Positions 36,163-63,426 of a stretch of 64,000 nucleotides of DNA are shown piece by piece; within the stretch, counting starts at the first letter, position 1; each line of letters starts with the position of its first letter. The DNA is from Agathobaculum massiliense (GTDB taxonomy: Bacteria; Bacillota; Clostridia; Oscillospirales; Butyricicoccaceae): NCBI RefSeq assembly GCF_900291975.1, contig NZ_OMPN01000001.1, forward strand, positions 1,426,001-1,490,000. The letters are read 5' to 3'. Made by a program: the position numbers and the translations under genes. Under the pieces are notes generated by a model. The model searched no databases, had not been told where the DNA came from, and was given only the letters and a program-made list of their open reading frames with translations.

Positions 36163-37075
36163 GAAGTGGAGAAAAAAGCACCAGACCGGCATCCGGCACG
36201 GGATCCAGGCGCTTTGGGCGTTCCTGACCAACAGCTATCTGACAGGGTTTCGGAACGGCACGATCTATCAGGGGAATTTAAAGTACCTGTGCGTCCCCGG
36301 CCTGAACTGCTATTCCTGTCCGGGGGCGAGAGGGGCCTGTCCTATCGGCGCGCTCCAGGCCGTTATCGGAAGCTGGAAGTTCAAGGCGGCGTTCTACATC
36401 TCCGGCATCCTGATTTTTATCGGCGCGCTGGTGGGCCGCCTGGTCTGCGGATGGCTGTGCCCGTTTGGTCTGATCCAGGAGCTGCTGCACAAGATCCCTT
36501 TCGTGAAGAAGATCGGGACCTTCCCTGGGGACAAGCTCCTGCGGAAGCTGAAGTATGTGATCCTGCTGGTATTTGTAATCCTGCTCCCAATGTTCCTGGT
36601 GGACATCATCGGGCAGGGCTCCCCCTACTTCTGCAAGCTGATCTGTCCGGCCGGGACGCTGGAGGGCGGAATCCCGCTGGTGCTGCTGAATGAAGGAATG
36701 CGGGGAGCCATCGGGTGGCTGTACGCCTGGAAAAACCTGCTGCTGGTATTGACGGTTCTGGCCTGCATCATCATTTACCGCCCGTTCTGCAAATACATCT
36801 GCCCCCTGGGGGCCATCTATTCCTTTTTTAACAAGGTGTCCGTGTTCCGCTACCGGGTGGATGCGCATAAGTGCGTCCACTGCGGGAAATGCGCGAAAGC
36901 CTGTGAAATGCAGGTCGATCCGAGCAAAACCCCAAACCATGCGGAGTGTATCCGCTGCGGGAAGTGCCGCAGCATCTGTCCCACAGATGCAATACAGCTT
37001 ACGACCTGCTTTTATCAGAAGCACGATGATACAAACGCAGAAGAAACATATCAAGCAAAAGACAACTTGAAGTAA
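36155..37075 (+). CDS. 4Fe-4S membrane protein (NapH/YccM-like)
   Basis: A 306-residue protein. Several transmembrane helices alternate with cysteine motifs (CYSCPGARGACPIGA, CGWLCPFG, CPAGTLEGG, CKYICPLGA). Two C-terminal 4Fe-4S ferredoxin motifs follow (CVHCGKCAKACE, CIRCGKCRSICP). It should move electrons across the membrane, here plausibly to the CXXC peptide and the TlpA-like lipoprotein. TTG start at 36155 within the preceding gene's end, with GGAG upstream. Confidence 0.9.
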   Translation: MDKKWRKKHQTGIRHGIQALWAFLTNSYLTGFRNGTIYQGNLKYLCVPGLNCYSCPGARGACPIGALQAVIGSWKFKAAFYISGILIFIGALVGRLVCGWLCPFGLIQELLHKIPFVKKIGTFPGDKLLRKLKYVILLVFVILLPMFLVDIIGQGSPYFCKLICPAGTLEGGIPLVLLNEGMRGAIGWLYAWKNLLLVLTVLACIIIYRPFCKYICPLGAIYSFFNKVSVFRYRVDAHKCVHCGKCAKACEMQVDPSKTPNHAECIRCGKCRSICPTDAIQLTTCFYQKHDDTNAEETYQAKDNLK

Positions 37076-37083
37076 ATCTATAA

Positions 37084-37125
37084 GGACAAGAGTTATATTA
37101 TCGCTCTTGTCCTTTCTCTTTTTTT
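37084..37125. terminator. Convergent terminator
   Basis: Stem GGACAAGAG / CTCTTGTCC followed by TTTCTCTTTTTTT. It ends the redox operon and overlaps the 3' end of the leftward relaxase gene. Confidence 0.8.
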
Positions 37126-38795: not shown

Positions 38796-38799
38796 AAAT

Positions 38800-39235
38800 C
38801 ACCTTGTCCTTTCTGAAAGGGATGCCCCGAAACAGGGCACTCTTGTTTTCGCTCAGTACATCGTGAAATGCGACGTACCACCAGCAGGGGTGGAATGATT
38901 CGTTCCACCCCTGCATCTGTGTCAAGCTGCGGAACATATCCGAAGGATTTGTTCTGGGCAGAGTTGACGCAGGCAGACGGCGGGATGGGGTGGCAATATA
39001 CCACCCCATGAACAGGGGCTTCCAAAACGGAAACCCCTGCGCCGACTGCGTGGACAAGGCTGGCAGTTTGGCAGAAATGCAGCCTTGTCCAGCGGCTCCC
39101 GCAAGGAGCCGCAATCCCCCTCGGAGAGCGCACGTGCCCGACCAACGGGAGGGCTACCACCGCTTGCTTTATCAGGTGGTGAGTAAGTGCGCCCTTTCGG
39201 GAAAAAGAAAAAGCGACCGATAGCCGATCGCTCAT
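38800..39235. other. Origin-of-transfer region
   Basis: TAAGTGCGCCCT at 39184-39195 matches the nic core of RSF1010/pSK41-type (MobQ) origins. An ACCACC / GGTGGT inverted repeat (39156-39161, 39175-39180) lies just before it, as is usual. The rest holds further hairpins: GCAGGGGTGGAA and complement (38884-38914), ATGGGGTGG and complement (38985-39009), GCGGCTCC and complement (39092-39112). No credible gene is present despite open frames. Confidence 0.75.
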
Positions 39236-39240
39236 AAAAA

Positions 39241-39447
39241 TCATCGGATTGGTTTGAATACTTCGCATAAAAAATCCTCCAACTGTTCCAAAGTCATCTG
39301 TGTTGTCTGCGGTAATGCTTTCTCTAAAATCGCACCCTCCTGAATCAATCGCCGTGTCCGTGCTTTTCGCTCTTTCTGTCGGTCGCGCATCTGTGCTTCT
39401 TCCAATCGGTGCTTCGCCTGCAAAAGCTTCTTTTCATTTTCTGTCAT
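39241..39447 (-). CDS. DUF3847-like small mobilisation-associated protein
   Basis: A 68-residue, strongly helical and basic protein (MTENEKKLLQAKHRLEEAQ, RDRQKERKARTRRLIQEGA, then ILEKALPQTTQMTLEQLEDFL). It resembles DUF3847 proteins that sit beside MobA/MobL relaxases; two relatives occur at 56655 and 56020. It may assist relaxosome assembly. The start at 39447 follows AGGAAT. Confidence 0.7.
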   Translation of the reverse strand: MTENEKKLLQAKHRLEEAQMRDRQKERKARTRRLIQEGAILEKALPQTTQMTLEQLEDFLCEVFKPIR

Positions 39448-39667
39448 AAATTTTATTCCTTTCTGCCGTATCCGGCTGAAAACACAAAGAAGGCGGCTCA
39501 TGAGATTTTATGTAAGCGTCAAATAAAGCAACGGATTGTGGGTAGAGGTAGAGTGTGAGAAAATAAGGATAAAAGTTGCAGTGGATAGCATTAAGGGAAG
39601 TCAAACAAGAAAGAATTGAGTGGCGGCGAGCAAAAATTGCCCGCCGCCATTTCTGATTCAGATAGGA

Positions 39668-40021
39668 TTATAGATCAGGAGATTTTCGAGATTCATTGGT
39701 CAGGACAGCGCGGAAGATAAGTGCGAGGAATTCAACGGAACACAGACGGCTGTCAAGGTGCCTTTTCGCCAGGGATTCTAACAGTGGCCGATTGCGTTTC
39801 CAAGCAATCGCGGATGCAGTTCGGATATTCCGTTCCACCGCTTTCCAGTTCGTTCCGTATTTCTTGGCAACATCGGGATAAAGCCATTTTGTTACCAGCA
39901 GAAGTCTGTCCTGCTGCTCCATGCACAATGATACCGCATAGGTGGTATGGAAAAAACCTTTATAATGCGGGTATATTCCGAGTTGGCAGAGCAGATCACA
40001 AGTTACTTGAGAATCTGTCAT
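39668..40021 (-). CDS. Spo0A C-terminal-domain-like protein (IS66 passenger, copy B)
   Basis: 117 residues, identical to the copy A protein. It shows the Spo0A effector-domain pattern (LLLVTKWLYPDVAKKYGT, NWKAVERNIRTASAIAWKR) without a receiver domain. Last gene of the element. Confidence 0.8.
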   Translation of the reverse strand: MTDSQVTCDLLCQLGIYPHYKGFFHTTYAVSLCMEQQDRLLLVTKWLYPDVAKKYGTNWKAVERNIRTASAIAWKRNRPLLESLAKRHLDSRLCSVEFLALIFRAVLTNESRKSPDL

Positions 40022-40055
40022 GATACCATTTCCTCCTCATGTGATTTTGGTTCGT

Positions 40056-40319
40056 TCATAGCAATGCACGGTTTGCCTCTCGCTCATAGTAAAAATTATC
40101 GTGTTCTTCTGGCTGGTGCTGCATGAATGTTTCCATTGGGACATCCAGTGCAATCGCCAATTTATAAAGCAGTTCTGCGGACGGCTTGCGCTTTCTGCCT
40201 TTTTCAAGGGCACGGACATAACGGATGGAGGTACCCGCTCTGGCTGCCAATTCAGCCTGGGGTATACCCTGTTGTTCCCGTATTTCACGCAGCTTTGCTC
40301 CATCAAATCTTGCCAACAT
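40056..40319 (-). CDS. XRE-family regulator (IS66 passenger, intact copy)
   Basis: An 87-residue helix-turn-helix protein (MLARFDGAKLREIREQQGIP, AELAARAGTSIRYVRALEKG, SAELLYKLAIALDVPMETFM). The ATG at 40319 follows GGGAGGTGAGGAAA. This is the functional version of the gene broken at 19580 in copy A. It probably regulates element genes together with the Spo0A-like protein. Confidence 0.85.
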   Translation of the reverse strand: MLARFDGAKLREIREQQGIPQAELAARAGTSIRYVRALEKGRKRKPSAELLYKLAIALDVPMETFMQHQPEEHDNFYYEREANRALL

Positions 40320-40445
40320 TTTCCTCACCTCCCTTCATGCAAAGCATAAGGGATGGAAAGGATTACCTGTGAGGCTCTGTAGTTCCCCTTTGGTGGAAAA
40401 TGTCGAAAAAAATGGACCGGCCTTTCGGTCAGTCCGTTAAAAAAC

Positions 40446-42047
40446 CTATATTGTAGAGTCCTCCTGGCCCCTGCGATATTGCACCGGAACAAGATCCGGT
40501 GTCAGTTTTGTGGCCCACTCTCTGTCAGCCACGGCCATAGATGGCGCCCTGGACAGCACATAGACCAGATACCGGTATGGGTCAAGGTCGTTTTCCTTGG
40601 CCGTTTCAATCAGGCTGTAAACAATGGCGCTGCTCTGGGCCCCGCCTTCCGTATTTGCAAACAGCCAGTTCTTCCGCCCCATCACAAAGGGTTTCATACT
40701 CCGTTCTGCCCGGTTGTTGCTTATTTCCAGCCGCCCGTCCTCCAAAAAGCATTTCAGATATGGCCACTGCTCCCGCAGATAATACAGCGCCTTTCCCAAA
40801 GAGGACTTGGGCGGGGCGGTTTTTGTTTCCGCCCATGCCAACAAAGCGTCCATCATCGGTTTGGACCGGATCAGACGCTGTTTGTACCGTTCTTCCGGCG
40901 GCAAATCCGCCAGTTCCTTTTCAATGGCGAAGAGAACATTGCAGTATTGCAGTCCCTCCAACGCCGCGCAGCCAGTCTGCTGCTCTTTTGGCAAGGCGTT
41001 CACCGCTTCGTCAAACTTTCGCCGCAGATGCACCCAGCAGCCAACCACCCGGATGTTCTCCGGCAATCGGTGGTAGCCGGAATAACCATCAGCATGGAGC
41101 CAGCCCGTAAAGCCCTTGAGGAACGCCTCGGCATTCTCCGCCTTTCGGCTCTGCTGGTACTCATACAGGACAATGGGGTGCCCGGCGTCTCCGCCGGTCC
41201 GGTACAGCCACATATAGCACTTGCTCCTGGCCGTCCGCCCTTCCAGTTTCAGCACCTGCAGAGTCGTCTCATCCGCGTGGAGGACCTCTCGCTGAAGCAA
41301 CTGTTGGTGCATCTGGTCATAGATGGGCCGCAGCCAATCCTCCGCCACCCGCAGCACCCAGTTGCTCATCGTCTGCCGGGAGAGCATCACCCCAGCCCGA
41401 TTCCATTCCTGTTCCTGCCGGTACAGCGGAGCGTACATCACAAACTTTTGGACCATGATATGAGCCACAGCCTCTGGGGAGGCGTAGCTGCCTGAGATCA
41501 GGGGAGGCTCTTTTTCGGCTTTCAGGACAGGTGTTTCCGTCCCCGTCTGCTTGCAGTTCTGGCAGGCGTATGTAAAATAAACATCTTCCCGGATCTTCAC
41601 CTGGGCGGGAATCATCACCAGAGTACGGCGGATCTCGGTGCCAATCTCCGTCATGAGTGTACCGCATTCAGGACAGTTACGCTCAGACTTCGGGACACGG
41701 TGTTCTACCACCTCAACAGGAACATTGTCCGGCAGTACCTCCTCCACACGGGAAGACCGCTTCTGCCGTGTGTGGGCCGCCACCTTAGTTTCCTTTGAGG
41801 CGCTCCTTCTGGTGGACAGCCACGCTTCCGTTTCATCAAACATCAGGCTCAACTGGCCTGCCAGTTCTTCCTTCGTCTGCTCGGACGATGCCCCATAGAC
41901 TTTCTTTTTGGCAAGACGCATCTGCTCCATCAGCCAGTCCAGCTTCTGGTTCAGCTCGTCTCTTTCCGCCTTCAGAGACTCATATTCCGCACGGGAAATG
42001 GTCACCATTTCCGTGTTGCTTGTGATAATATTCACTTCATTTTTCAT
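40446..42047 (-). CDS. tnpC: IS66 transposase TnpC, copy B
   Basis: 533 residues, identical in sequence to copy A, with the full DDE core (LHADETTLQVL, LHADGYSGYHRL, ISNNRAERSMKPF). ATG at 42047; a TTG 18 bases upstream is less likely. Confidence 0.93.
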   Translation of the reverse strand: MKNEVNIITSNTEMVTISRAEYESLKAERDELNQKLDWLMEQMRLAKKKVYGASSEQTKEELAGQLSLMFDETEAWLSTRRSASKETKVAAHTRQKRSSRVEEVLPDNVPVEVVEHRVPKSERNCPECGTLMTEIGTEIRRTLVMIPAQVKIREDVYFTYACQNCKQTGTETPVLKAEKEPPLISGSYASPEAVAHIMVQKFVMYAPLYRQEQEWNRAGVMLSRQTMSNWVLRVAEDWLRPIYDQMHQQLLQREVLHADETTLQVLKLEGRTARSKCYMWLYRTGGDAGHPIVLYEYQQSRKAENAEAFLKGFTGWLHADGYSGYHRLPENIRVVGCWVHLRRKFDEAVNALPKEQQTGCAALEGLQYCNVLFAIEKELADLPPEERYKQRLIRSKPMMDALLAWAETKTAPPKSSLGKALYYLREQWPYLKCFLEDGRLEISNNRAERSMKPFVMGRKNWLFANTEGGAQSSAIVYSLIETAKENDLDPYRYLVYVLSRAPSMAVADREWATKLTPDLVPVQYRRGQEDSTI

Positions 42048-42127
42048 ATTCTTATTATAACACAAAACCCCTTAAAACACCAGCATTTCAAGGGATTTCG
42101 AGGAAAATAGCATCCGATTTTTCAACG

Positions 42128-42484
42128 TTATATCATACTCGGGCCAGTCACCGCTTTGTGCGCTTTGGGCTGTTCGATCTTTAACCCTTCCATAAGCCAG
42201 CGGTACTGCTGACCTGTCAACTGGCGCGCCTCATCTCCGTTCCGCGGCCACTGGAAGGCGCCTGCTTCTAACCGCTTATATACCAGAACAAATCCATCCC
42301 CCTCCCAATACAGCCCCTTGATCCGATCCCGCCGGTAACCGCAGAACAGGAACAGCGTATTGCTGAACGGGTCCAGATGGAACTGCCGCTGTACCAATGT
42401 CGCCAGGCCGTCGATCCCTTTCCGCAGATCTGTGTACCCACAGGCTATATACACTTTTTCCGCGCCGCGAAAATCATTCAGCAT
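42128..42484 (-). CDS. tnpB: IS66 accessory protein TnpB, copy B
   Basis: 118 residues, identical to copy A (YIACGYTDLRKGIDG, LFLFCGYRRDRIKGLYW). Overlaps tnpA by 11 bases. Confidence 0.93.
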   Translation of the reverse strand: MLNDFRGAEKVYIACGYTDLRKGIDGLATLVQRQFHLDPFSNTLFLFCGYRRDRIKGLYWEGDGFVLVYKRLEAGAFQWPRNGDEARQLTGQQYRWLMEGLKIEQPKAHKAVTGPSMI

Positions 42485-42875
42485 GGCACACCGATCGGCA
42501 GATCGCTTCTATCACCGGCAGCTCCACTCCCGCATAAATCTCAACTTCTATCCCTCGCCCCTTTACCACCACTGTTACTGCCGACTGTTTCCCCGCTGGA
42601 GCAGTCTGAAGAAGCTCCCTGTTCCACATCCCTTCCTTCCTCACTCTCAGCTCTACAAATTCAGCCGCCTTTTTTTCTGCCGGTACTCTTTCCACCTTTT
42701 TTATCCCGTGGCCACTTCGCTGCAATACTCTTTTCTCCCATCGGTAATACGTCTTTGTGCTGATGTCCCGTTCATCGCACCATCCCGTTACTGTTTGCCC
42801 GCTGCTCCGGCATTCCTGTACGAGCTCCGTCCATTGGGCCGCTTGCTGCTCCCGATGTCTTTCCCGAATTGTCAT
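42474..42875 (-). CDS. tnpA: IS66 accessory protein TnpA, copy B
   Basis: 133 residues, identical to copy A at the protein level; one synonymous difference is visible near the 3' end. HTH segment WTELVQECRSSGQTVTGWCD. Confidence 0.9.
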   Translation of the reverse strand: MTIRERHREQQAAQWTELVQECRSSGQTVTGWCDERDISTKTYYRWEKRVLQRSGHGIKKVERVPAEKKAAEFVELRVRKEGMWNRELLQTAPAGKQSAVTVVVKGRGIEVEIYAGVELPVIEAICRSVCHAE

Positions 42876-43023
42876 TTTTCCCAGCTCCTCTGCTTCCTTT
42901 GACTTCCCTTAATGCTATCCACTGCAACTTTTATCCTTATTTTCTCACACTCTACATCTACCCACAATCCGTTGCTTTATTTGACGCTTACTTGGCGACC
43001 TCTAATCCCGCCGGAAATCCGCA

Positions 43024-43235
43024 GTCAAGGCCCGCCCAGTCCGCAGACTGGGCGGCTCGCGTGCGATTGTGAAACAATCGCACGGCCTTGACGGCGGACA
43101 GAGGGCGGGATACCCTCCACGCATGGGATAACGCCCCGCCGCTGCGGATGGGGGGTTCAGGGGCTTGCCCCTGACAAAAGGCGTTTGTGTCACAAATGCC
43201 ATACTTGCTCGGACAGCGACGCCCTGCGGCGTCGC
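43024..43235. other. Array of perfect hairpins including a three-way junction
   Basis: An outer stem GTCAAGGCC (43024-43032) / GGCCTTGAC (43084-43092) encloses two perfect hairpins: CGCCCAGTC / GACTGGGCG (43033-43054) and GTGCGATTGT / ACAATCGCAC (43061-43083). Further right are TCAGGGGC / GCCCCTGA (43157-43174), a GCGTTTGTG / CACAAATGC near-palindrome (43181-43199) and GCGACGCC / GGCGTCGC (43216-43235). It sits next to the RepA gene, so a replication or transfer origin is likely. An open frame here is not credible. Confidence 0.55.
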
Positions 43236-43291
43236 CGTCTGGTTCGGCTGGCTTGATAGCTGTGCGGCATTTATACGGCTGTAAATCCGTT

Positions 43292-43840
43292 TCAGAATGG
43301 ATAGATGATAGATTTAATTAACTCAGTATAATTCTTATTAGTATTATTACATTCGGTTTTTCCGTATTCTTGACTTCCTGTTTTCCGCGGTGCAGAGGTA
43401 TCGTTTTGAGCCGTCAAGACTTCCGTTTCTGTGCAGTCCTGATTGCGGCTGCCGGTAGGATGATGGGGCGGCTCTGGACGCTCTTGCGCGGTAAACTGCC
43501 TGACATAAATTTGGGACGGTTTGCCCTGTCCCTGACGGACACGTTCAATTAAGCCAACGCCTTTTTTGTTATCCAGCTCATTCAGCAACTTTAATACCTT
43601 GTCCTTTTTGCAGTTGAGGTGTTCTACAATATCTGTCACAGTGTAGTAGATAAATACACGGCCCTGATCGTCATACCAGCCATTACGGGCGGATAAACAC
43701 ATACGGTCCAGCATCAGGCTGTTTAGCAGCTTGGCGTCCGTGGACAGACCGCGAAACTGCGGGGCGGTAAACAGCAGACGGGGGATACGTAGAAATCGGA
43801 AGCTCTCCGACTGCTCACCATAGTAATAATCAAAGCTCAT
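43292..43840 (-). CDS. repA: RepA-type replication initiator, possibly 3'-truncated
   Basis: A 182-residue protein. The N-terminus matches RepA_N-type initiators of Firmicutes (ESFRFLRIPRLLFTAPQFRG, LSTDAKLLNSLMLDRMCLSA, RNGWYDDQGRVFIYYTVTDI). The winged-helix follows (HLNCKKDKVLKLLNELDNKKG, GLIERVRQGQGKPSQIYV). The tail is hydrophilic and ends early (ELIKSIIYPF) compared with what I recall of the family, which usually has a further C-terminal domain, so it may be truncated. It should start replication of the mobilisable element. The start at 43840 follows GGAAAG. Confidence 0.8.
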   Translation of the reverse strand: MSFDYYYGEQSESFRFLRIPRLLFTAPQFRGLSTDAKLLNSLMLDRMCLSARNGWYDDQGRVFIYYTVTDIVEHLNCKKDKVLKLLNELDNKKGVGLIERVRQGQGKPSQIYVRQFTAQERPEPPHHPTGSRNQDCTETEVLTAQNDTSAPRKTGSQEYGKTECNNTNKNYTELIKSIIYPF

Positions 43841-43872
43841 TTTTTCGTGTTCCTTTCTTTCCTTTAGATAGA

Positions 43873-43905
43873 AAAACGGCACTATCCGTTGGATAGTGCC
43901 GTTTT
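43873..43905. promoter_or_regulatory. Long palindrome upstream of repA
   Basis: Perfect 15-bp arms AAAACGGCACTATCC and complement with a 3-base loop. It lies about 30 bases upstream of the repA start. It may be a terminator-attenuator or initiator-binding site controlling copy number. Confidence 0.6.
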
Positions 43906-44177
43906 CTGGCGGTTATTCTCTTCGTCATAAAGATTTTTGTGCGGTGATTGCCTGTTTTTTGCGTTTTTACTGCTTTTTTAGCTATTCCTTATGCGTATTT
44001 GCCTTTGCCGGCGATAAAGTTTTTTAGAATCTGGCGTAAAAATCCGGCGATTATGACACCGGCAGAATTTTTGAAATATTGTCTTGTTGAAAAGGCAGCG
44101 GGCCGGATAAAAAACCACGGCCCGCTGTGTTTACATCTGCTGAATCTCATTTTCAGCGTATGCTTGATTTTATCGCA
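43906..44177. other. Spacer without a recognised gene
   Basis: Nothing recognisable; an open leftward frame here overlaps the IS66-remnant terminal repeat and is not considered real. Confidence 0.4.
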
Positions 44178-44964
44178 GTAACCGTCAGGTAATCGGACGG
44201 ATTGATAAATAGTGGAGGGAGTGCGATAATGTACCCATGACATACGTCAGTGACGACAGTGATGGGAAAGTGGGGACATTATGACGGTGAGGGAGGCAAA
44301 AGCCGAGGCCAACATGAACAGGTGGCAGCAATCATCACTGAATAAAGGCAAAGCGTGCAGAGTATAGTGGAATTCTACACAGGACGGCAAATCACAACCG
44401 GCCTGTTCTACAGGTCGCAGAGAAAAGTTTTGAACCGGCTGATAGGAAGCCAAACGGGTTCAAACGAGGGGCGGTGGATTTGCTTTGCAGAATTGCCGCC
44501 GGTAGAAGCCTTTCCGGTACCGCAGTTGTCGTCGGCATCAGAACCACAAACGGAGATATCAAAAGAGGCGGTTGCCACGCTCCGCATAAGAGGTACTGAA
44601 ATAGAGATTTACGCAAGAGCGGATGCAGTTTTGGTAGAGACGTTGTGCAAGGGGGATTCATGCTCAATGACTTCAATGGAGCTATACCTTGCAGTTGGAT
44701 ATACGGATCTGCGAAAAGGGATTGGCGGGCGGGCGGCTCTGGTGCAGCAGCAATTCGAACTTGATCCATTCACCAATACGCTGTTCCTTTTTTTGTGGTC
44801 GGCGCAGAGACCGCATGAAAGCCTTCTATTGGGGAAAAGACGGCATCTTACTCCTCTACAAACGTCTGGAGGAAGATGCTTCCATTGGCCAAGAAGCGGG
44901 GGTATGGGTACATTATCGAACTCGCCGCACTGTTTATCAATCCGTCCGATTGCTTGACGGTTAC
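44178..44964 (+). mobile_element. Internally deleted IS66-family derivative
   Basis: 787 bp with inverted ends of about 60 bp: GTAACCGTCAGGTAATCGG inward at left and its near-complement at right. Between them is a broken tnpA (MTVREAKAEANMNRWQQ then a TAG) and a frameshifted tnpB (MELYLAVGYTDLRKGIGGRA, DPFTNTLFLF, then RRRDRMKAFYWGKDG in another frame). No tnpC. It differs from the two full IS66 copies and cannot move by itself. Its right end is 22 bases from the groEL stop. Confidence 0.8.
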
Positions 44965-44985: not shown

Positions 44986-46620
44986 TTAGTAAACCTTCTT
45001 GTTGGATTCTTCTCTGGTCTTGCCGCCCGAACGTAGCCATGCCTCGTCAATCGGGTCGATAACATCCACCTCGGTCGTCAGGAATACCGACGCCATGGAA
45101 GCGGCGTTCTTCAGCGCCAGCTTTGTCACCTTGGCCGGATCAACAACGCCTACCTCCGCCATGCGGACAAACTCTCCGGTGATGACATCCAAACCAACGC
45201 CATTTCCCTGCTTTACTGCTTCCGAGGCAACCACGCCGCTGTCAAATCCGGCATTCTGCGCAATCTGGCGCATGGGTTCCTCTAACGCCTCCATCACAAC
45301 CTGTGCGCCGGAAAGCTCATCGCCGGTAAGCTGCTGCGCATACTTGCGCACCGCAGGAATCGCATTGCAGAACGCAACGCCTCCACCGGCAACAATACCC
45401 TCCGCAAGCGCGGCGCGGACAGCATTGAGAGCATCCTCAACGCGCGCCTTCTTTTCTTTCAGTTCGAGTTCGGATGCCGCGCCGACACGAATGACAGCAA
45501 CGCCGCTTGCCAGCTTGCCGAGACGCTCCCGCGCACGATCCACTGCAAATTCATCTTTCGCCTCAGCCAGCATACGGCGGAGCTTTTCTATCTCCTCCGC
45601 AATCGCTGCCTTGTCGCCTGCACCGCCGACGATAATAGTCCGGTCCTTGCGGACAGTGACCTTCTCCGCCTCGCCAAGCATATCTACCGTCGCCTTTTTC
45701 AGATCATATCCGGTCTCTTCGCGAACGACGGTCGCGCCCGTGAGCAGAGCCAACTCATCCACCAGCGCCTTTTTGCGCTCCCCCACGCCAGGCGCACGCA
45801 CCGCAACCGAGTCAATTGCGCCCTGTAGCTTATTGATTACCAAAGCTTTAAGCGCTTCGCCTTCCACATCCTCTGCAACAATCAGCAGCTTTCTGCCGCA
45901 TTGCGCGACCTTGTCCAAAATTGGGATAATATCACCCAAACTGCTGATTTTCTTATCCGTAAACAAGATATAGGGATGCTCCAGCATAGCCTCCATCTTT
46001 TCCGTATCAGTAACCATGTACTCTGAAAGGTAGCCCTTGTCAAATTGGCTGCCCTTCACAATCTCAAAGGAGGTATCCATAGTCTGCGAATCTTCAATGG
46101 TAATGACGCCATCCTGGCCCACCTGATCCATGATCTCTCCCAGAATCTCGCCAGTCTGGCGGTCCGCACCGGAAATCGAAGCGACCTGCACAATATCCTC
46201 CTTACCCTTCGGCAAGTATGCGCTTTCGCTGATCGACTGCACAGCCGCATTCACTGCACCCTGAATGCCCCGGCGAAGCCCCATCGGGTTCACACCGGCC
46301 GCCATATTGCGAGTGCCTCCGCGAATAATCGCCTGCATCAGCAACATCGCAGTCGAGGTACCGTCGCCGACGGCCTCGTTGGTCTTTTCTGCAACCTGCT
46401 TGAGCATCTGCGCGCCAAGATTTTCCGTGATATCGGACAGTTCGAAGTCCTTGGCAACGGCCGATCCCTCGTTTGTAACGAAAACCCTGTCACCGAAGCC
46501 GGCGACCATAACATTGCGCCCCTTGGGGCCGATTGTAGTTTTTACTGCGTCTGCCAGCTGATTCATGCCCGCTTGCAGACGCTTTCTAGCTTGATCGCCA
46601 TAATATAAATCTCTTGCCAT
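44986..46620 (-). CDS. groEL: GroEL-type chaperonin paralogue
   Basis: A 544-residue protein, normal GroEL length. ATP-binding and equatorial signatures are present (KTTIGPKGRNVMV, VGDGTSTAMLLMQAII), and AEDVEGEALKALVINKL marks the apical domain. The end, GGKTREESNKKVY, lacks the usual GGM repeat tail. No groES gene is adjacent. It is the last gene of the leftward betaine-CoA operon, suggesting a chaperonin dedicated to, or recruited by, that pathway. The start at 46620 (MARDLYYGDQARKRL) follows GGGAGATG. A strong hairpin (46656-46685) lies between it and the transporter. Confidence 0.92.
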   Translation of the reverse strand: MARDLYYGDQARKRLQAGMNQLADAVKTTIGPKGRNVMVAGFGDRVFVTNEGSAVAKDFELSDITENLGAQMLKQVAEKTNEAVGDGTSTAMLLMQAIIRGGTRNMAAGVNPMGLRRGIQGAVNAAVQSISESAYLPKGKEDIVQVASISGADRQTGEILGEIMDQVGQDGVITIEDSQTMDTSFEIVKGSQFDKGYLSEYMVTDTEKMEAMLEHPYILFTDKKISSLGDIIPILDKVAQCGRKLLIVAEDVEGEALKALVINKLQGAIDSVAVRAPGVGERKKALVDELALLTGATVVREETGYDLKKATVDMLGEAEKVTVRKDRTIIVGGAGDKAAIAEEIEKLRRMLAEAKDEFAVDRARERLGKLASGVAVIRVGAASELELKEKKARVEDALNAVRAALAEGIVAGGGVAFCNAIPAVRKYAQQLTGDELSGAQVVMEALEEPMRQIAQNAGFDSGVVASEAVKQGNGVGLDVITGEFVRMAEVGVVDPAKVTKLALKNAASMASVFLTTEVDVIDPIDEAWLRSGGKTREESNKKVY

Positions 46621-46655
46621 GTTGTGTTTACATCTCCCTGACTGCTTTCGCACAG

Positions 46656-46712: not shown

Positions 46713-48359
46713 TTAAACCTTTTTTTCTATTATCTCACACTCGCTCGCTTCTTGCAAGGCCCCTCGCACATTAGCGTTCTCTTCAATCGTTCTCTCCCTG
46801 TCCTCTGCTTCCTTGATCGCTATGATCTCCGCATGGAGGCCGCTGCGCTCGTCTTCCTTCAGCCACTTTAACAGGCCAAGCATCATACCGGCCAGAATCA
46901 GGAGGAATGGGGCGGAAATGATAATCGCAATGTACTTGATCGAGTCGAATGAGGCGCCAACCAGCAGTACAGACATCGGGATGATCGCCAGCAGCACACA
47001 GAAGAAGATGCGAAGCGCCATCTTCGGCGTACCGCGCTTGGTTACGGTTTCCGCCAAAGCCAGAGAAGCGGAGTCCATGGACGGCGCGACGAAACCGACG
47101 ATCAGCACCAAAATCAGGAACGGTAGAAGTGTCGAGCCCAGCGGCAGAGCCTTCAAAATCTCATAAATCGCTGCATCACCAATACCGCTTGCAACCAGGC
47201 CGGTTACGTCAACCATACCCTGGGTATGTGCATAAATCGAGAAGCTGCCGTCGATGCCGAAGATGCACATGCCGCCGAAGGACATGATAAAAATGGTGTA
47301 GATTGCAATCTCACGGATGGTTCTGCCTTTGGAAACCTTCGCAATGAAGATACCCATCATTGCAACATAGTTCAGGTAGAAAGCAACGAAGTAAATCGTC
47401 CAGCTTTCTGCAAAGCCTGTATTCGCGATCGGGTCGGTGAACAGCGCCATACGCGGCAGATCCTGAATCAGATAGCCCAGAGAGTTGACAATATTCTTGA
47501 AGATGAACGTCGTTGGCCCCATAAACAGTACATACAGCAGGAAGAAGATACACACGACAGAAGCGATATTACTGATCGTCTGCATACCCTTCTTCGTGCC
47601 GAGGAAAGAGGTAAACGTATAAACCAGCGCGATGAATACGATAACGCCAATCTGAACAGCCGGCGTCGCCTCGATACCCCAGAGCGTATTCAGGCCAGAA
47701 GTTGCCAGCGGTACACCAAGACCCAGCGAAGAGCTGAGCGCACCCAGAATGCCAAAGATGACCAGAAAGTCGATCACTTTGCCGATGATAGACTTCCCCT
47801 TGACCTTTTTGCCCAGCATTGCGCAGCATACCGCGCTCGTCTGGAAAGAAGGGAGTTTTCTGACATACACACCGTAAGCGATCGCCACGCCGGCAATCGT
47901 ATACAGGGACTGGTTGACAAAGCCCCAGTGGAAGAACTGGTACGCCAGCGAGGACTCGAGCGCTTCCAGGCTTTGCGGCTCCATGCCAAGGCCGGGTGCC
48001 TGGTAGTAACTCGCCCATTCTACGAACGACCAGTACAGTGCAGCAGACGCCAGAGACGCCAGCAGCATCATAGCAAAATAGCTAAAGTTCGAGTATTCCG
48101 GCTTGCAGTTACCCAAGCGGATCTTGCCATATTTGCCAAAGCCCAGATAAAGGGATACCAGAAAAGAAATAAACGCAACCAGCAGGAAGAACGGCCCCAG
48201 CGCATCTATCATGACATTAAAGAAGTTCATGATCGTGTTGAGTGTTCCTTCCGCATTCACAACCATACAGATGATAAATGCAACCAGTATGGCTACGCTA
48301 ACAATAATCAAGCCTACTTCTACATCAGCGTTTTTATTCTTTTTGGAGTCATTATCCAT
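46713..48359 (-). CDS. BCCT-family betaine/carnitine transporter
   Basis: A 548-residue protein with about twelve membrane helices. Helices 3-4 carry SAALYWSFVEWASYYQAPG, close to the CaiT pattern of an aromatic substrate box followed by YYQAP. The Trp-box region is FFHWGFVNQSLYTIAGVAIAY, then VRKLPSF, again as in CaiT. It should import a quaternary amine such as carnitine, gamma-butyrobetaine or a related betaine, possibly by exchange with the product. The C-terminal tail is charged. The start at 48359 is chosen over 48380. It lies directly after the thioesterase gene. Confidence 0.88.
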   Translation of the reverse strand: MDNDSKKNKNADVEVGLIIVSVAILVAFIICMVVNAEGTLNTIMNFFNVMIDALGPFFLLVAFISFLVSLYLGFGKYGKIRLGNCKPEYSNFSYFAMMLLASLASAALYWSFVEWASYYQAPGLGMEPQSLEALESSLAYQFFHWGFVNQSLYTIAGVAIAYGVYVRKLPSFQTSAVCCAMLGKKVKGKSIIGKVIDFLVIFGILGALSSSLGLGVPLATSGLNTLWGIEATPAVQIGVIVFIALVYTFTSFLGTKKGMQTISNIASVVCIFFLLYVLFMGPTTFIFKNIVNSLGYLIQDLPRMALFTDPIANTGFAESWTIYFVAFYLNYVAMMGIFIAKVSKGRTIREIAIYTIFIMSFGGMCIFGIDGSFSIYAHTQGMVDVTGLVASGIGDAAIYEILKALPLGSTLLPFLILVLIVGFVAPSMDSASLALAETVTKRGTPKMALRIFFCVLLAIIPMSVLLVGASFDSIKYIAIIISAPFLLILAGMMLGLLKWLKEDERSGLHAEIIAIKEAEDRERTIEENANVRGALQEASECEIIEKKV

Positions 48360-48394
48360 CTTCCTATTTCGCCTCCTCATAACGGTGGTAGGTT

Positions 48395-48811
48395 TTACGA
48401 GCTCAAAAGCGCTCTCATCAAGTCAGTAATCGGGCGGCTGGTGCGGTTTTCCACATCATAGCCTACATATACCGACTCACACAGGAGGATCAGGTCATCC
48501 TCACCTTGATGATAGATCTCAAACTGTATGGTAAAGCTTTTCTTGCCGATTTTGATCTTGCTGATACCAACTTCAAGCATGTCGCCCGCATATGCGCTGG
48601 AAACAAATTCATAGGTAGACTTTTTATGACATACCTCAGAGTCATGCTTTTCTGCCAGTTCTCGGTAGGAGTATCCCTTGGAGCGGAGGAATTCCTCAAA
48701 CGCCAGGTCGGTATATGCAACATAATTACCGTTGTAAACAATGCCCTGCTGGTCTACCTCGCCGTAGCGAACACGAAACGGAGGGCAAAAGTAAAAGCAA
48801 TCACGCCTCAT
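48395..48811 (-). CDS. Hotdog-fold acyl-CoA thioesterase (4HBT/YbgC-like)
   Basis: A 138-residue protein. The catalytic region RVRYGEVDQQGIVYNGNYVAYTD contains the Asp of YbgC-type thioesterases, followed by AFEEFLRSKG. It probably hydrolyses a CoA ester formed by the operon's CoA-transferases and dehydrogenase, recycling CoA or relieving blocked intermediates. Its start overlaps the ferredoxin stop, so the two are coupled. Confidence 0.85.
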   Translation of the reverse strand: MRRDCFYFCPPFRVRYGEVDQQGIVYNGNYVAYTDLAFEEFLRSKGYSYRELAEKHDSEVCHKKSTYEFVSSAYAGDMLEVGISKIKIGKKSFTIQFEIYHQGEDDLILLCESVYVGYDVENRTSRPITDLMRALLSS

Positions 48812-49137
48812 TATGGCTCTCCTCGCTTTTTTCTGTATTCTCTGGATCTGTTCAGGCGTTTTACTGCCGCACGCAGCGCGGCAGCAGAATTAGCCGAACG
48901 CTTACGGACCTTGTGTTTCAATGCACCTGGAGCGCAGACATCCACACAATAGCCGCAGTTAATACACGTCAAAAACGCTTTTCCAACCGCATGCGGATAG
49001 CCCTCTTCATCCACGCTGATGACACGCATCGGACAGATATCCACACAGGCATTGCATTTTACGCATTTTTCCTTGTCCGGAGAAATCAGTTCAACAGCTT
49101 CCACAACAAAATCCCCTTCAAAACAGAATCCATCCAA
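48811..49137 (-). CDS. Two-cluster 4Fe-4S ferredoxin
   Basis: A 108-residue protein with two cluster motifs (CVKCNACVDICP and CINCGYCVDVCAP) and a basic C-terminal tail (VKRLNRSREYRKKRGEP). It is a likely electron carrier for the acyl-CoA dehydrogenase reaction of the operon. The N-terminal 20 residues (DGFCFEGDFVVEAVELI) are an extra strand region. It lies between the thioesterase and a CoA-transferase gene. Confidence 0.85.
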   Translation of the reverse strand: MDGFCFEGDFVVEAVELISPDKEKCVKCNACVDICPMRVISVDEEGYPHAVGKAFLTCINCGYCVDVCAPGALKHKVRKRSANSAAALRAAVKRLNRSREYRKKRGEP

Positions 49138-49203
49138 CGTTCAATGTCCTTGTATACACCAGGCCATGAATATCAGATGGATCGTTTTACCTTTGATAGA
49201 TCA

Positions 49204-50406
49204 TCAACCTGCCTGGTGTATTGCACCCTCTGCGAGCAACTTGTCGATTCTCTCCTGATCATAGCCAAGGCTGTTCAAGATTTCGATGCTGTTCGCACCA
49301 GGGAATCCGGCCGTCGAAGCGTCCGGATCTACCGGAGTCTCGCTGAAGAGGATAGGCGTATTGGTCACAGTGTATTCCCCTACGCCAAGCTGATTGATCT
49401 GGGTAATTACATTCAGTGCTTTTGTTTGCGGGTTATTGTCAAACTCCTGAAGCGACTGCACCGCAGCAGCGGGTACGCCAGCCTCATGGAGTTTGTTTTC
49501 AACATCATATCTTCCCATTGCACCTGTTGCTTTTTCCAGTTCCACGATCAGCGCATCTCTGTTCTGCACACGCAGTTCGTTATTGCAGAACCTCGGATCC
49601 GCCGCCAGATCATCCACCCCAAGCGTATAGCAGAGGGTTTTCCACTCCCCCTCGCTGCTCACGGCAATGACAACATTGCCGTCCTTGGCAGCGAATTCGC
49701 CATAGGGCGCATACCAAACATAATGGTTGCCGGACTTTTCGGTGAACTTGCCGGTCACCGAATGCTCCAGGACAGGAGCTTCACACATATAAAACGCACA
49801 ATCGAGCATTGCGATGTCAACGCGAAGCCCCTTGCCGGTCTTCTGCTTATACAGCAACGCCATCGACAGGCCTCGCATCATCTGCAACCCCGCCCATGTA
49901 TCGCACATGGAAAAACCAGGCTTAATAGGGGCATCGCCCGCCTGACCACTCTGCGCAACCAGACCGCTTCGGGCAGCAGCGATAATATCCATACACGGCA
50001 GGTGGGACAACGGACCATATGTACCGAATCCAGAAATAGATCCGTAAATCAGACTGGGATTGACTTCCACCATCTTGTCATAGCCGAGCCCCAGCTTTTC
50101 CAACGTGCCTGCCTTGAAGTTCTCAATGACAATATCTACCTGCGCAACCAGATCAAGGACAACCTTCTTGCCCTCTTCCGAACGCATGTCAATTGCAATT
50201 CCCTTTTTGCCGCGATTATATTGACAGAAATATAGGCTGATGTCGTTGACATACGGGCCGTATTCACGGGAAATATCGCCGTTTCCGGGCCGCTCTACCT
50301 TGATTACGTCTGCTCCCATGTCTGCCAGCATCATGCCACAGAACGGTGCAGATAGAACTTGAGAAAAATCAAGAACTTTAATTCCTTTGAGAGGTCCCTT
50401 CCTCAT
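49204..50406 (-). CDS. Class III (CaiB/BaiF) CoA-transferase, first copy
   Basis: A 400-residue protein. Family signatures are PLKGIKVLDFSQVLSAPFCG, LADMGADVIKVERPGNGD, NRGKKGIAID and the catalytic Asp in LPCMDIIAAARSGL. It transfers CoA between a carboxylic acid and an acyl-CoA donor by a ping-pong mechanism. With the BCCT transporter and dehydrogenase it fits activation of a betaine acid. Ribosome site GGGAG before the start. It is 49 bases downstream of the second CoA-transferase gene. Confidence 0.9.
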   Translation of the reverse strand: MRKGPLKGIKVLDFSQVLSAPFCGMMLADMGADVIKVERPGNGDISREYGPYVNDISLYFCQYNRGKKGIAIDMRSEEGKKVVLDLVAQVDIVIENFKAGTLEKLGLGYDKMVEVNPSLIYGSISGFGTYGPLSHLPCMDIIAAARSGLVAQSGQAGDAPIKPGFSMCDTWAGLQMMRGLSMALLYKQKTGKGLRVDIAMLDCAFYMCEAPVLEHSVTGKFTEKSGNHYVWYAPYGEFAAKDGNVVIAVSSEGEWKTLCYTLGVDDLAADPRFCNNELRVQNRDALIVELEKATGAMGRYDVENKLHEAGVPAAAVQSLQEFDNNPQTKALNVITQINQLGVGEYTVTNTPILFSETPVDPDASTAGFPGANSIEILNSLGYDQERIDKLLAEGAIHQAG

Positions 50407-50454
50407 TTTTCACTCCCCCAAACTCATGATCTCAGGCTTATCCAATACTACCGT

Positions 50455-51633
50455 TCAAATGACGCCTTCTCTATGCAGATTTTCCATCGCCGCGGCATCA
50501 ATTCCAAGGGAGGTATAGACCTGCTCATTCTGCGCACCGATTTCGGGCGCCGCAGACAGCGGCTCCTCTTCTTCTCCGCAGAACTTGACCGGCTTGCCCG
50601 GCATCTCAAGTTCGCCAAGGTCGGTATCATTCACAGAAACAATCATGTTTCTTACACGCAACTGCGGCTGCTGCAGTGCTTCTTTGGTGGTACTGCACAT
50701 CGTACCTGGGATAAGTGCCTGATCGCAGATATCGGCAATTTCCTGCATCGTGTAACCCGAGAATAGATCCTCCAGTTTAACACGCAGATCACCGAAATAG
50801 TGGTAACCCCTCACCAGATTGGAACAGTATTTTTCATCTTCTGTCCATTCCTTCGGACAGTTGAATGCATTACAGAACTTTTCCCACTGAGCGTCGGACG
50901 AAATCCCCATCGCCACATAGCCGTCCTTACATTTCAGGATGTCATAAGGGTTGATCAGCGGGTGTGCATTACCGGTACGCATCGGATCCTCATGCTCCGC
51001 GCCGTAGGTGATAACCTTATCTTCAGTGATGGCAACAGCCGAGCCACAAAGTGTCGTTTCCACTACCTGCCCCTCGCCGGTTTCTCTGGCATGATAAACC
51101 GCCAAGCACACAGCAGAGGAAAGGAAGCTAGCCGCGTAGTGCTCCGATATCGCAAAGCCAATGCGGGTGGGTGGTTTTTCCGGAAAACCAGTAAAATGCA
51201 TCACGCCGCTCTTCGCCTGCGCAATCAGATCTAACTGCGGGGTATCCGCTTCGTCGCCTGTGGAACCGTATGCGGAAATGCGTCCGTATACAAGAGATGG
51301 TTTGATGACTGATAACACATCATATCCGAGCCCAAGCTCTTCCATTGTTTTGGGCGGGAAATTTTCCAGAACAACATCGGCCGTAGCCACCAGCTTTTTG
51401 AAAATCTCCTTCCCTTCCGGATGCCGCAGATCGAGCGTTATGCTCTTCTTTCCGCGGTCACGAAAGGCATGATGAACACTGGCACCATTTTTTAATGGTG
51501 CCAGTGTTCTCAGCGGGTCTCCACCGGGAGACTCCACCTTAATCACCTCTGCTCCGTAATCAGCCAATTCCATCCCGCAGTAACCGGAAAGTGTCATCAG
51601 GTCAAGAACTCTTATTCCTTCTAAAGGGAACAT
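50455..51633 (-). CDS. Class III (CaiB/BaiF) CoA-transferase, second copy
   Basis: A 392-residue protein. It shows PLEGIRVLDLMTLSGYCGME, LADYGAEVIKVESPGGDPL, RGKKSITLDLRHPEGKE and the catalytic Asp in PQLDLIAQAKSGV. It is related to but clearly different from the first copy, so the two may act on different acids (substrate and product) or form a heteromer. It lies between the first CoA-transferase and the acyl-CoA dehydrogenase. Confidence 0.9.
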   Translation of the reverse strand: MFPLEGIRVLDLMTLSGYCGMELADYGAEVIKVESPGGDPLRTLAPLKNGASVHHAFRDRGKKSITLDLRHPEGKEIFKKLVATADVVLENFPPKTMEELGLGYDVLSVIKPSLVYGRISAYGSTGDEADTPQLDLIAQAKSGVMHFTGFPEKPPTRIGFAISEHYAASFLSSAVCLAVYHARETGEGQVVETTLCGSAVAITEDKVITYGAEHEDPMRTGNAHPLINPYDILKCKDGYVAMGISSDAQWEKFCNAFNCPKEWTEDEKYCSNLVRGYHYFGDLRVKLEDLFSGYTMQEIADICDQALIPGTMCSTTKEALQQPQLRVRNMIVSVNDTDLGELEMPGKPVKFCGEEEEPLSAAPEIGAQNEQVYTSLGIDAAAMENLHREGVI

Positions 51634-51677
51634 AGCAACCTCCTAATTACTGTAAGAAGCAAGCCTCACGGAAAATA

Positions 51678-52856
51678 TTACTCCTCGTAAGCCCAGCCAG
51701 TATAGAGCTCGATGCCGCGCTTCTTAATCTGGCCACCAATGACGTTGCGCTGGATCTCGGAAGTGCCTTCCCAGATACGGTCAACGCGCTGGTCACGCCA
51801 CAGACGCTCGACAGCATTCTCGCGCATGTAGCCGCGGCCACCCAAAATCTGAACGCCCTTGTCGGTTACACGGTTTACCATCTCGGAACACCACAGTTTG
51901 ATCGCAGATGCACGGGCATGCTTCAGTTTGCGATCCATATCGCCCGAAATTTCCCAGCATACACGATAAAGCAGGCTCTTGGCCGCCATGATGTCCATGG
52001 TCATGTCAACCAGCATATGCTCGATGACCTGATAATCGCGGATGACGCGGTCGCCCTGTACACGGTTCGCAGCGAAGTCGTTGGCTTCCTTCAAAACACG
52101 CTCAGCGCCGCCTACACAGCGAGCCGCAATACCCAGACGTGCTTCCACAAACCAATCCTTGGTCATGTTAAAGCCTTCGCCAATTCCCTTCAGGATTTTG
52201 GACTCATCTACAACTACATCCTCGAACAGGAATTCCGGATGCTTGAATGCAAAGTGGTGGGTGAACTCAGGGGTGCGCTTAATGCTTACGCCCGGGGTGT
52301 CCTTCTCTACGAAGAATACGGTCGCCTTGTTCGGGTCGCCGTCGATGTGGGTGTGAACCAGCAGGTAGTCAGCGATGTTACCAACGGTCACGTACCACTT
52401 CTCGCCGTTGATCTTGTAGCCACCGTCACACTTAACAGCGGTGGTCTGGCACATGGTCGGGTCAGAACCAGCGTCCGCCTCCGTGATTGCATATGCATCG
52501 CGGCGCTTGCACTGACAGGTCGGGATCAGGTACTCTTCGATCTGCTCCTTGGTGCCGAACTTCATCGGGAAAGACGGCTGCGGAACAGCGTCCCAGATAG
52601 CGCCGGTGGACATACCAAGCTGCTCACTGATCAGAGCCTGCTCAAACAAGGTGTAGCCGGTGCCTCCGTGCTCTTTGGAATGGTTGGTAGCGTTGAACCC
52701 CCACTCCATTACCTGCCCGTTAATGTACTTATGACTCTCAGGACTCAGACCGTTGTTCTCCTCAACTTCCATCTCGTACGGGAACAGGACCTGCTCAGTA
52801 AACTCTCTTGCCTTTTCCTGCAGCGCGCGGTGCTCTTTGCTCAGTTTGAAATCCAT
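51678..52856 (-). CDS. Acyl-CoA dehydrogenase family protein
   Basis: A 392-residue flavoprotein. It shows the family signatures AYAITEADAGSDPTMCQT (FAD/substrate), GEKWYVTVGNIADYLLVHT, and the C-terminal QILGGRGYMRENAVERLWRD and IWEGTSEIQRNVIG with the usual catalytic Glu. Start MDFKLSKEHRALQEKAREF at 52856 follows GGAAGC. It is the first gene of the operon. By analogy with CaiA and with acyl-CoA-dehydrogenase-like enzymes of gamma-butyrobetaine degradation, it may dehydrogenate or cleave a betainyl-CoA; the substrate is not proven by sequence. Confidence 0.9.
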   Translation of the reverse strand: MDFKLSKEHRALQEKAREFTEQVLFPYEMEVEENNGLSPESHKYINGQVMEWGFNATNHSKEHGGTGYTLFEQALISEQLGMSTGAIWDAVPQPSFPMKFGTKEQIEEYLIPTCQCKRRDAYAITEADAGSDPTMCQTTAVKCDGGYKINGEKWYVTVGNIADYLLVHTHIDGDPNKATVFFVEKDTPGVSIKRTPEFTHHFAFKHPEFLFEDVVVDESKILKGIGEGFNMTKDWFVEARLGIAARCVGGAERVLKEANDFAANRVQGDRVIRDYQVIEHMLVDMTMDIMAAKSLLYRVCWEISGDMDRKLKHARASAIKLWCSEMVNRVTDKGVQILGGRGYMRENAVERLWRDQRVDRIWEGTSEIQRNVIGGQIKKRGIELYTGWAYEE

Positions 52857-52939
52857 AAATATGCTTCCTTTCTGAAATGAAATCAATTCGTCCGAACTCG
52901 GTTCATCTGTGTTTTGTTCGTCCGCTCTCGGATGATTCT

Positions 52940-52967
52940 ATTATAAAATATTCCAAAAAAAAATCAA
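52940..52967 (-). promoter_or_regulatory. Promoter of the acyl-CoA dehydrogenase operon
   Basis: On the minus strand, TTGATT (52967-52962) and TATAAT (52945-52940) are spaced by 16 bases. The leader before the start contains repeated GTCCG-type sequences (TCGTCCGAACTCGG, TCGTCCGCTCTCGG in plus-strand reading, about 52890-52930), a possible regulator site. Confidence 0.6.
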
Positions 52968-53185
52968 GTGCTTCCTCAATCTTTTATGCAATTTGTATGT
53001 TTGAACAAAAATACATACCCTAATTTGTGCATTAGTAAATGTCATTCTGCACTTTCTATTTTTTCTAGATTTTTTTACATGCCGCCCTGTGCAAAAACAG
53101 CGTAATTATACGCAGTCTGAAAGGTTACGGCGCTCCCACTTCACTTCCGATTTCTAGCCTTTTTTCATGTCAAAGTATAAAACTA

Positions 53186-53246: not shown

Positions 53247-53684
53247 GTGGACGAGCGGGAGAGTAATCTGTTCGACAGGTTTTATAAAAGCTGGCGCGGG
53301 ATAGAGGTCGCGTATGAAAAGATTGCGTCAGACTGTGGCGTTACCACCAACGTCATGTATATTCTTACACTACTGTACAAAAATTGCGAACCGATGACAC
53401 AAAACGAGCTGAGCAAGGAACTGCATTTATCCAAGCAGACTGTGACCAGTGTGGTGGATAGTCTGGAAAAACGCGGCTGGGTCACCCGTAGCATTGACCC
53501 CAACGACCGACGCAACCGAATCGTAACCCTCACGGAAAGCGGCCGAGAAACTGGGCGCCATATTGGCAGAACAATGCGTCGTGCCGAATTCTCTGCGTTC
53601 GAAATGCTTCCGGACGAGGAGAAGCTCAGTCTGGTCAACAGTATGGAAAAGCTGTGGGATGGGTTTGCACACCTTTGGGCATAG
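53247..53684 (+). CDS. MarR-family regulator
   Basis: A 145-residue protein with the winged helix-turn-helix (MTQNELSKELHLSKQTVTSV, VDSLEKRGWVTRSIDPNDRR). GTG start with AGAGGTG upstream. It is divergent from the CoA/BCCT operon and probably regulates it as well as itself. Confidence 0.88.
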   Translation: MDERESNLFDRFYKSWRGIEVAYEKIASDCGVTTNVMYILTLLYKNCEPMTQNELSKELHLSKQTVTSVVDSLEKRGWVTRSIDPNDRRNRIVTLTESGRETGRHIGRTMRRAEFSAFEMLPDEEKLSLVNSMEKLWDGFAHLWA

Positions 53685-63385: not shown

Positions 63386-63426
63386 AGCTCCCGCTCCTTT
63401 CTTCCACGGCGGGGCAGACGGGCAAC

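Follow-up and report, generated by a model that had tools for sequence, protein, structure and literature searches.

A bbu/gbu operon for predicted gamma-butyrobetaine use in Agathobaculum massiliense and the second GroEL linked to it

Trimethylamine (TMA) derived from dietary carnitine has been linked to heart disease. A 64-kb stretch of the Agathobaculum massiliense genome (3.2 Mb), covering positions 1,426,001-1,490,000 of a 3,212,687-base contig and referred to below as the window, carries a cluster of genes for a transporter, two coenzyme A (CoA)-transferases and an acyl-CoA dehydrogenase (ACAD), which raises the question of which compound these genes serve and why a chaperonin gene follows them. 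Our answer, held with high confidence, is that they form a bbu/gbu operon for anaerobic use of gamma-butyrobetaine, including the mechanism proposed below. The pathway is already known, and A. massiliense is a further carrier with the full gene set.

Gene content and identity of the operon

An earlier note on this DNA had recognized a BCCT transporter, two class III CoA-transferases, an ACAD, a ferredoxin, a thioesterase and a divergent MarR regulator. All are intact, clustered open reading frames (ORFs) with Pfam support, matches of window ORFs being counted when above cut-off. The boundaries given there, 46,713-52,856, correctly enclose the six bbu genes but omit the MarR gene, the promoter region and a chaperonin gene. 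The genes are the following.

51678-52856, minus strand: bbuA/gbuA, ACAD-family flavoenzyme, predicted gamma-butyrobetainyl-CoA TMA-lyase (Pfam ACAD; 89% identical to BbuA of Emergencia timonensis, 94% to that of Agathobaculum desmolans)
50455-51633, minus strand: bbuB, class III CoA-transferase subunit with Glu164 in place of the catalytic Asp (Pfam CoA_transf_3, PF02515; 79% to E. timonensis)
49204-50406, minus strand: bbuC, class III CoA-transferase subunit with Asp169 (Pfam CoA_transf_3; 76% to E. timonensis)
48811-49137, minus strand: bbuD, 2x[4Fe-4S] ferredoxin-like protein, TTG start (Pfam Fer4_7 and kin; 50% to E. timonensis BbuD)
48395-48811, minus strand: bbuF, YbgC/4HBT-like acyl-CoA thioesterase (Pfam 4HBT_2; 70% to E. 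timonensis)
46713-48380, minus strand: bbuE, BCCT transporter, predicted gamma-butyrobetaine uptake (Pfam BCCT, E 1.1e-114; 75% to E. timonensis BbuE, 29% to CaiT)
44986-46623, minus strand: bbu-linked second GroEL, predicted dedicated chaperonin (545 aa, full-length Cpn60, PF00118 219.5 bits)
53247-53684, plus strand: MarR-family regulator, divergent (Pfam MarR; divergent homologue at 6/14 other bbu loci)

Transcription on the minus strand runs A-B-C-D-F-E-GroEL, with groEL 89 bp beyond bbuE on the same strand. The same order with a divergent MarR gene is present at L009 (A. desmolans), L010, L011, L012, L020 and L126 (genome G394), and at L127 (genome G435) without a MarR gene within 2.5 kb. 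As this arrangement is found again in other species, it is not a product of chance.

The earlier note had likened the locus to gut bacterial gamma-butyrobetaine degradation, in which an ACAD-like enzyme releases TMA, and had proposed a comparison with the bbu/gbu clusters of E. timonensis. Carried out with the SN18 locus (L013), this comparison yields counterparts for all six proteins at the identities listed above, and the 89% identity of BbuA supports the proposed likeness. At 89%, BbuA lies above the >70% identity by which bbu clusters were assigned (Rajakovich 2021, PMC8364193). Both E. timonensis and A. desmolans produce TMA from gamma-butyrobetaine (PMC8364193). The order A-B-C-D is common to the window and SN18; SN18 continues with E-F, whereas the window has F before E, and the linked GroEL and the divergent MarR gene with its repeats are features of the window's locus that SN18 lacks. 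The cluster of A. desmolans ATCC 43058, for which a groEL-like neighbour was described (Dwidar 2023, PMC10653785), matches that of the window in its seven genes, in its MarR gene and in gene order (A/B/C/D/F/E/GroEL/MarR identities 94/89/87/72/77/77/74/66%), but no flanking gene in common with the window within the comparable 3.3 kb downstream.

In A. massiliense, BbuE would import gamma-butyrobetaine, BbuB and BbuC together would act as a heteromeric CoA-transferase giving gamma-butyrobetainyl-CoA, with transfer proceeding via Asp169 of BbuC only, and BbuA would eliminate TMA from this ester, leaving crotonyl-CoA, which may then serve general enzymes as carbon source and electron acceptor. 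In the published work, BbuB and BbuC were both required, and BbuA yielded TMA and crotonyl-CoA (PMC8364193). Some observations sit less easily with this scheme. The ferredoxin and the thioesterase fit no defined step of the pathway, no thioesterase match was found in bbu loci L015 and L016, and in 7 of the 14 other loci (L013-L017, L019 and L127) the MarR gene is not next to bbu, although at least 2.5 kb of upstream sequence is visible there.

Carriers are rare and patchy. A scan using one genome per species returned 16 loci. BbuA relatives with 76-95% identity are encoded at 12 of them, including those of E. timonensis SN18 and A. desmolans ATCC 43058, and the remaining four show no more than 29%. 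Among 391 sampled genomes of the class, only the present one carries bbuA (E up to 1e-60). Within the family, the gene occurs in 7 of 87 genomes (5/25 in the genus, 2/7 in a second genus and 0/55 elsewhere), and in the E. timonensis family in 5 of 247 sampled genomes, all five of which were also in the species-level scan. Clostridium aminobutyricum, a known gamma-aminobutyrate (GABA) fermenter isolated from mud, carries a complete bbu cluster in strain DSM 2634 (L014:10001-16145; BbuA 81%), with no linked GroEL. PMC8364193 describes bbu as confined to host-associated bacteria.

The second GroEL beside the operon

The chaperonin gene next after bbuE was overlooked in the earlier note. A groEL-like gene near gbu has been described in A. 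desmolans, E. minutum and Clostridia UC5.1-1D1 (PMC10653785). The same paper states that GroES/EL of E. timonensis enabled TMA production at 37 C while five E. coli chaperone plasmids did not (data not shown there), and soluble BbuA was obtained in E. coli only with E. timonensis GroEL-ES, riboflavin and flavin adenine dinucleotide (PMC8364193).

Presence of a second GroEL follows presence of bbu. Two full-length GroELs are found in all five bbu carriers among the 25 genomes of the genus; the 20 genomes without bbu have one (13) or none found (7) and never two, the seven being 77-86% complete in six cases and 90% in one. The second genus shows a second GroEL in both carriers and one GroEL or none in the five non-carriers. 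Altogether, a second GroEL is present in 10/10 carriers found outside Anaerovoracaceae (the E. timonensis family), including L012, Epulopiscium and the Lachnospiraceae metagenome-assembled genome (MAG) G486, the families of these three being taken from record titles. It adjoins bbu in nine of the ten; in G486, bbu and GroEL sit on separate short contigs. GroES is single in 16 of 17 genome records (two of which are one genome), always with the housekeeping GroEL, and absent from G483; none was found beside the linked GroEL copies. These patterns are consistent with a scheme in which an ordinary GroEL would fold BbuA poorly and the linked GroEL would fold it with GroES supplied by the housekeeping groE locus.

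The linked copies have none of the housekeeping groE features, namely a GroES partner, the controlling inverted repeat of chaperone expression (CIRCE) and a GGM-type tail. An exact CIRCE is present at 17/17 full-length housekeeping groEL loci of the genus and at the E. timonensis groE locus, and in 0/14 linked-locus records (10 genomes; the upstream side of L075 is cut off), where imperfect copies are possible; in the window, none was found with up to 3 mismatches. GGM-type tails, seen in most though not every one of the housekeeping GroELs compared, are missing from all linked copies. Other bacteria are known to have chaperonin paralogues that lack Gly-Met tails (PMC11978752).

Residues were counted without the linked GroEL of G394, which is nearly identical to that of L010. 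Of 177 columns invariant in 32 other GroELs, 103 are retained in all seven full-length linked copies, and Arg197 is replaced by Lys or Gln in 8/8 linked GroELs. The 32 others all have Asp52, Asp87 and Asp398, residues in contact with ATP phosphate or Mg (PMC8440773). The Mg-binding Asp87 is kept in 7/7 full-length linked copies. The ratio of nonsynonymous to synonymous substitution (dN/dS) is 0.10-0.15 for linked and 0.02-0.05 for housekeeping GroELs, with dS of 0.9-2.0 near saturation, values from which linked copies appear to remain under selection while evolving faster. That they have become slow-ATPase, one-client chaperonins is a bold but open suggestion.

Several points weigh against a dedicated chaperonin. 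Asp52 is replaced in 5/7 and Asp398 in 2/7 full-length linked GroELs, and some of these proteins may therefore hydrolyse ATP poorly. E. timonensis and the bbu-carrying members of its family have a single housekeeping GroEL (4/4 with GroEL found; none was found in the fifth carrier, G483), so the linked copy is not required as such. E. minutum, a published exception from that family with a linked GroEL, lies outside the analysed set. Finally, the region around the groEL start has two weak promoter-like sites, one in the last part of bbuE (46757-46729) and one spanning the start itself (46630-46602), which makes co-transcription of groEL with bbu uncertain.

The linked GroEL could instead be a passenger, that is a neutral duplicate or a mobile-element gene with no special link to BbuA. 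Mobile genes do adjoin the operon, and the faster evolution of the linked copies, like the loss of Asp52 in several of them, would suit such an origin. We nevertheless regard it as unlikely. The dN/dS values, though affected by near-saturated dS, are well below 1, and the linked gene stays next to bbu in 9/9 visible loci outside the donor family, while in the short flanks compared (L009-L014 and L020; L015-L019, L126 and L127 left out) no pair of proteins is common to the window and the six other species. The published dependence of BbuA on E. timonensis GroEL argues in the same direction, as do the donor-lineage ancestry of the linked GroEL, shared with bbu, and the GroEL of different ancestry that adjoins bbu in Epulopiscium.

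A comparable arrangement is found in di-iron monooxygenase operons with their own GroEL, such as smoABCD, where the GroEL of a catabolic operon is thought to fold the key enzyme (PMC11057499). The bbu case differs in enzyme and phylum, and in that the ancestry of the chaperonin can be traced to the apparent donor family of the pathway. If the linked GroEL is indeed a chaperonin for BbuA, it would mark working bbu clusters outside the Emergencia family, agree with the published result that reconstitution failed with E. coli chaperones, and offer a traceable case of an enzyme and its folding machine moving between families together.

Ancestry of the chaperonin and of the pathway

GroEL trees were built with 69 and 41 rows, the smaller again omitting the linked GroEL of G394. 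All linked GroELs except that of Epulopiscium form one clade (9/10 rows and 8/9 rows; 100/100 in the more careful tree), sister to the only GroEL of E. timonensis (100/97). The clade and its sister together sit within the single GroELs of the E. timonensis family, at a great distance from the native GroELs of the hosts. Origin by duplication of the host GroEL was rejected, as joining linked to host GroELs costs 97 log-likelihood units (approximately unbiased (AU) test, p 1e-71). The test likewise rejected a shared origin for the linked GroELs of Epulopiscium and of the other carriers (AU p 2.6e-5), a result to be read with caution because the Epulopiscium protein forms a long branch. In Epulopiscium, a distinct fast-evolving GroEL outside the linked clade lies directly upstream of bbuA (L017:3096-4667), apparently a second recruitment.

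A tree of four bbu proteins, with L019 covering 32% of the columns, separates E. timonensis from its own family and makes it the sister (100/99) of the loci from Butyricicoccaceae, Oscillospiraceae and Lachnospiraceae. Forcing bbu of Anaerovoracaceae into one clade gives an AU p of 0.028, which is moderate evidence, and doing so for Lachnospiraceae gives 0.014. For BbuA alone, E. timonensis is 89-92% identical to the recipients versus 82-84% to its own family. The best reading of these trees is that the pathway moved between families together with the donor's chaperonin.

This disagrees with a published statement that bbu genes were not moved horizontally (Vital and Heinrich-Sanchez, PMC10989800), which would have bbu inherited vertically and lost in most lineages. 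Some of our data suit that history. GC content of bbu is close to that of the host groE locus in E. timonensis (0.457/0.448), L012 (0.63/0.635) and L010 (0.543/0.578), and the seven Butyricicoccaceae loci group together, although weakly (60/93). By raw identity, BbuC and BbuE of E. timonensis also lean slightly towards C. aminobutyricum, a relative from its family (80 and 80%), the recipients reaching 74-79 and 71-78%; C. aminobutyricum is placed in Clostridiaceae at NCBI, but was counted in the E. timonensis family in the genome sampling here. Against these stand the placement of E. timonensis with the recipients, both AU tests, the BbuA identities and the donor type of the linked GroEL. The present tests thus lean against vertical inheritance, which we consider improbable. 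Apart from A. desmolans (bbu 0.564 vs groE 0.491), bbu GC content roughly follows that of each host, indicating that the transfer was not recent.

A broader proposal, to which we give an even chance, is that bbu is a self-chaperoned mobile pathway. BbuA would fold well only in GroEL of the Emergencia family, and the donor GroEL would for this reason have been carried along, freed from GroES and heat-shock control, placed next to the pathway genes and rebuilt as a one-client chaperonin, while Epulopiscium would have solved the folding problem separately with another GroEL. Folding, not chemistry, would then have limited the spread of TMA production in the gut. Among the matches listed in the open-access literature, we found no account of the ancestry of the linked GroEL, of the Asp asymmetry described below or of a BbuB-BbuC fusion, and we do not claim that none is in print.

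Catalytic residues, promoter region and genomic setting

BbuB and BbuC share 32% identity. In an alignment with E. coli CaiB, the position of CaiB Asp169, which we take to be the catalytic residue of class III CoA-transferases, is occupied by Asp in BbuC at 14/14 readable loci (L019, at a contig end, not being counted), whereas BbuB has Glu at 14/15 loci, Ser at one (Epulopiscium) and Asp at none. BbuB is thus predicted to share the fold family but to lack the catalytic role. Clostridiales MAG SUG175, which belongs to the E. timonensis family, encodes BbuB and BbuC as a single fused frame of 793 residues (L018:2063-4450), whose first half has the Glu and whose second half has the Asp; the linker reads cleanly, and an assembly error is possible. 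The asymmetry and the fusion together predict one catalytic Asp per BbuB/BbuC pair, which fits the published need for both proteins. Benzylsuccinate CoA-transferase, which presumably has the Asp in just one of its two subunits, likewise combines two unequal class III subunits but acts on a different substrate (PDB 9fn0); BbuB scores better with its chain A than with B, and BbuC better with chain B than with A. The asymmetry and the natural fusion make the roles of the individual subunits testable, a question left open in PMC8364193.

BbuA has Glu363, presumably at the position of the ACAD catalytic base, in 15/15 rows, whereas E. coli CaiA has Gly there. In CaiT, Arg262 stands in for sodium. 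BbuE has Ala at this position, and at 29% identity the earlier label 'CaiT-like' fits only loosely. The statement that CaiD- and CaiE-like genes are absent, and that this is not the standard carnitine-to-butyrobetaine set, agrees with our search, in which E. coli CaiC, CaiD and CaiE had no match in the 64-kb window (E up to 1e-3; the remaining genome was not searched for cai). The bbu carriers in PMC8364193 are described as having no cai genes in the genome. Within the window, E. coli CaiA, CaiB and CaiT match only the operon's genes, at 23-29% identity. The cai system of E. coli K-12 thus has the transporter, class III CoA-transferase and ACAD families in common with the window, but differs in these low identities, in a ligase, a hydratase and CaiE without matches in the window, in the two unequal CoA-transferases of the latter and in the base residue of the ACAD.

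A different betaine or CoA ester as substrate (crotonobetaine, valerobetaine or dimethylsulfoniopropionate), or a CaiA-type reductase operon making gamma-butyrobetaine, is very improbable and was rejected. Although BCCT, CoA-transferase and ACAD genes also constitute cai, and among solved structures a DddT chain is closest to BbuE (E 1.8e-92), BbuA shares 89% identity with a proven TMA-lyase and 26% with CaiA, the base residue differs, caiC, caiD and caiE matches are absent from the window, and E. timonensis consumed neither carnitine nor GABA, BbuB/C giving no product with either (PMC8364193).

Between bbuA and the MarR gene, three elements were identified.

52940-52967, minus strand: predicted sigma-70-type promoter, TTGATT-16 nt-TATAAT (10/12 consensus matches, joint best of 12 sites in the stretch)
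52886-52924, minus strand: candidate operator downstream of the -10 box, made up of three direct repeats YRGAYNAAY at 15-bp intervals (sole such triplet in 64 kb)
52992-53009, minus strand: another candidate MarR operator, the inverted repeat TTTGT-N8-ACAAA situated upstream of the -35 box (pattern once in the window)

The triple repeat arose in 0/2000 mononucleotide shuffles of the intergenic region. All seven MarR-linked loci, the window included, have a TTGAYT-16-TATAAT promoter and the inverted repeat, the latter 132-161 bp before bbuA. Of the imperfect palindromes (up to 2 mismatches) in seven intergenic regions, one is shared, as these counts for the inverted repeat confirm. By the strict pattern, the triple repeat is whole in four of them (window, L010, L020 and L126), with two of three units in the other three. 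None of the elements was found at that place in E. timonensis or G435 (L127), the two MarR-less loci examined. Because these elements track the presence and absence of the MarR gene, one or other of the two repeats is likely a MarR site, through which the MarR protein would control the operon promoter. L127, which has the operon and the linked GroEL but none of the three elements, provides a natural control for the MarR reading.

IS66, RepA_N and MobA/MobL genes lie downstream of groEL. They belong to a mobile region adjoining the operon (31193-44957), which holds a Recombinase-family gene, a MobA/MobL relaxase, a full IS66 transposase, a RepA_N initiator and an IS66 TnpB-like fragment. Two IS66 transposase genes (17834-19453 and 40446-42065) have equal length, identical Pfam scores and opposite orientation, and the stretch between them contains integrase and IS110 genes. 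Searches with the upstream flank of the window and its far left edge found no clean empty site, the upstream flank being mostly accessory sequence that matches mainly scattered short pieces. A flavin mononucleotide riboswitch (63532-63642, minus strand) was considered as a tie to the riboflavin genes induced in E. timonensis; it lies about 10 kb from the operon and overlaps the start of a MATE transporter ORF (62006-63820), whose true start is probably downstream of the riboswitch. At the other end of the window, a group II intron with a reverse transcriptase/maturase occupies 4307-6359.

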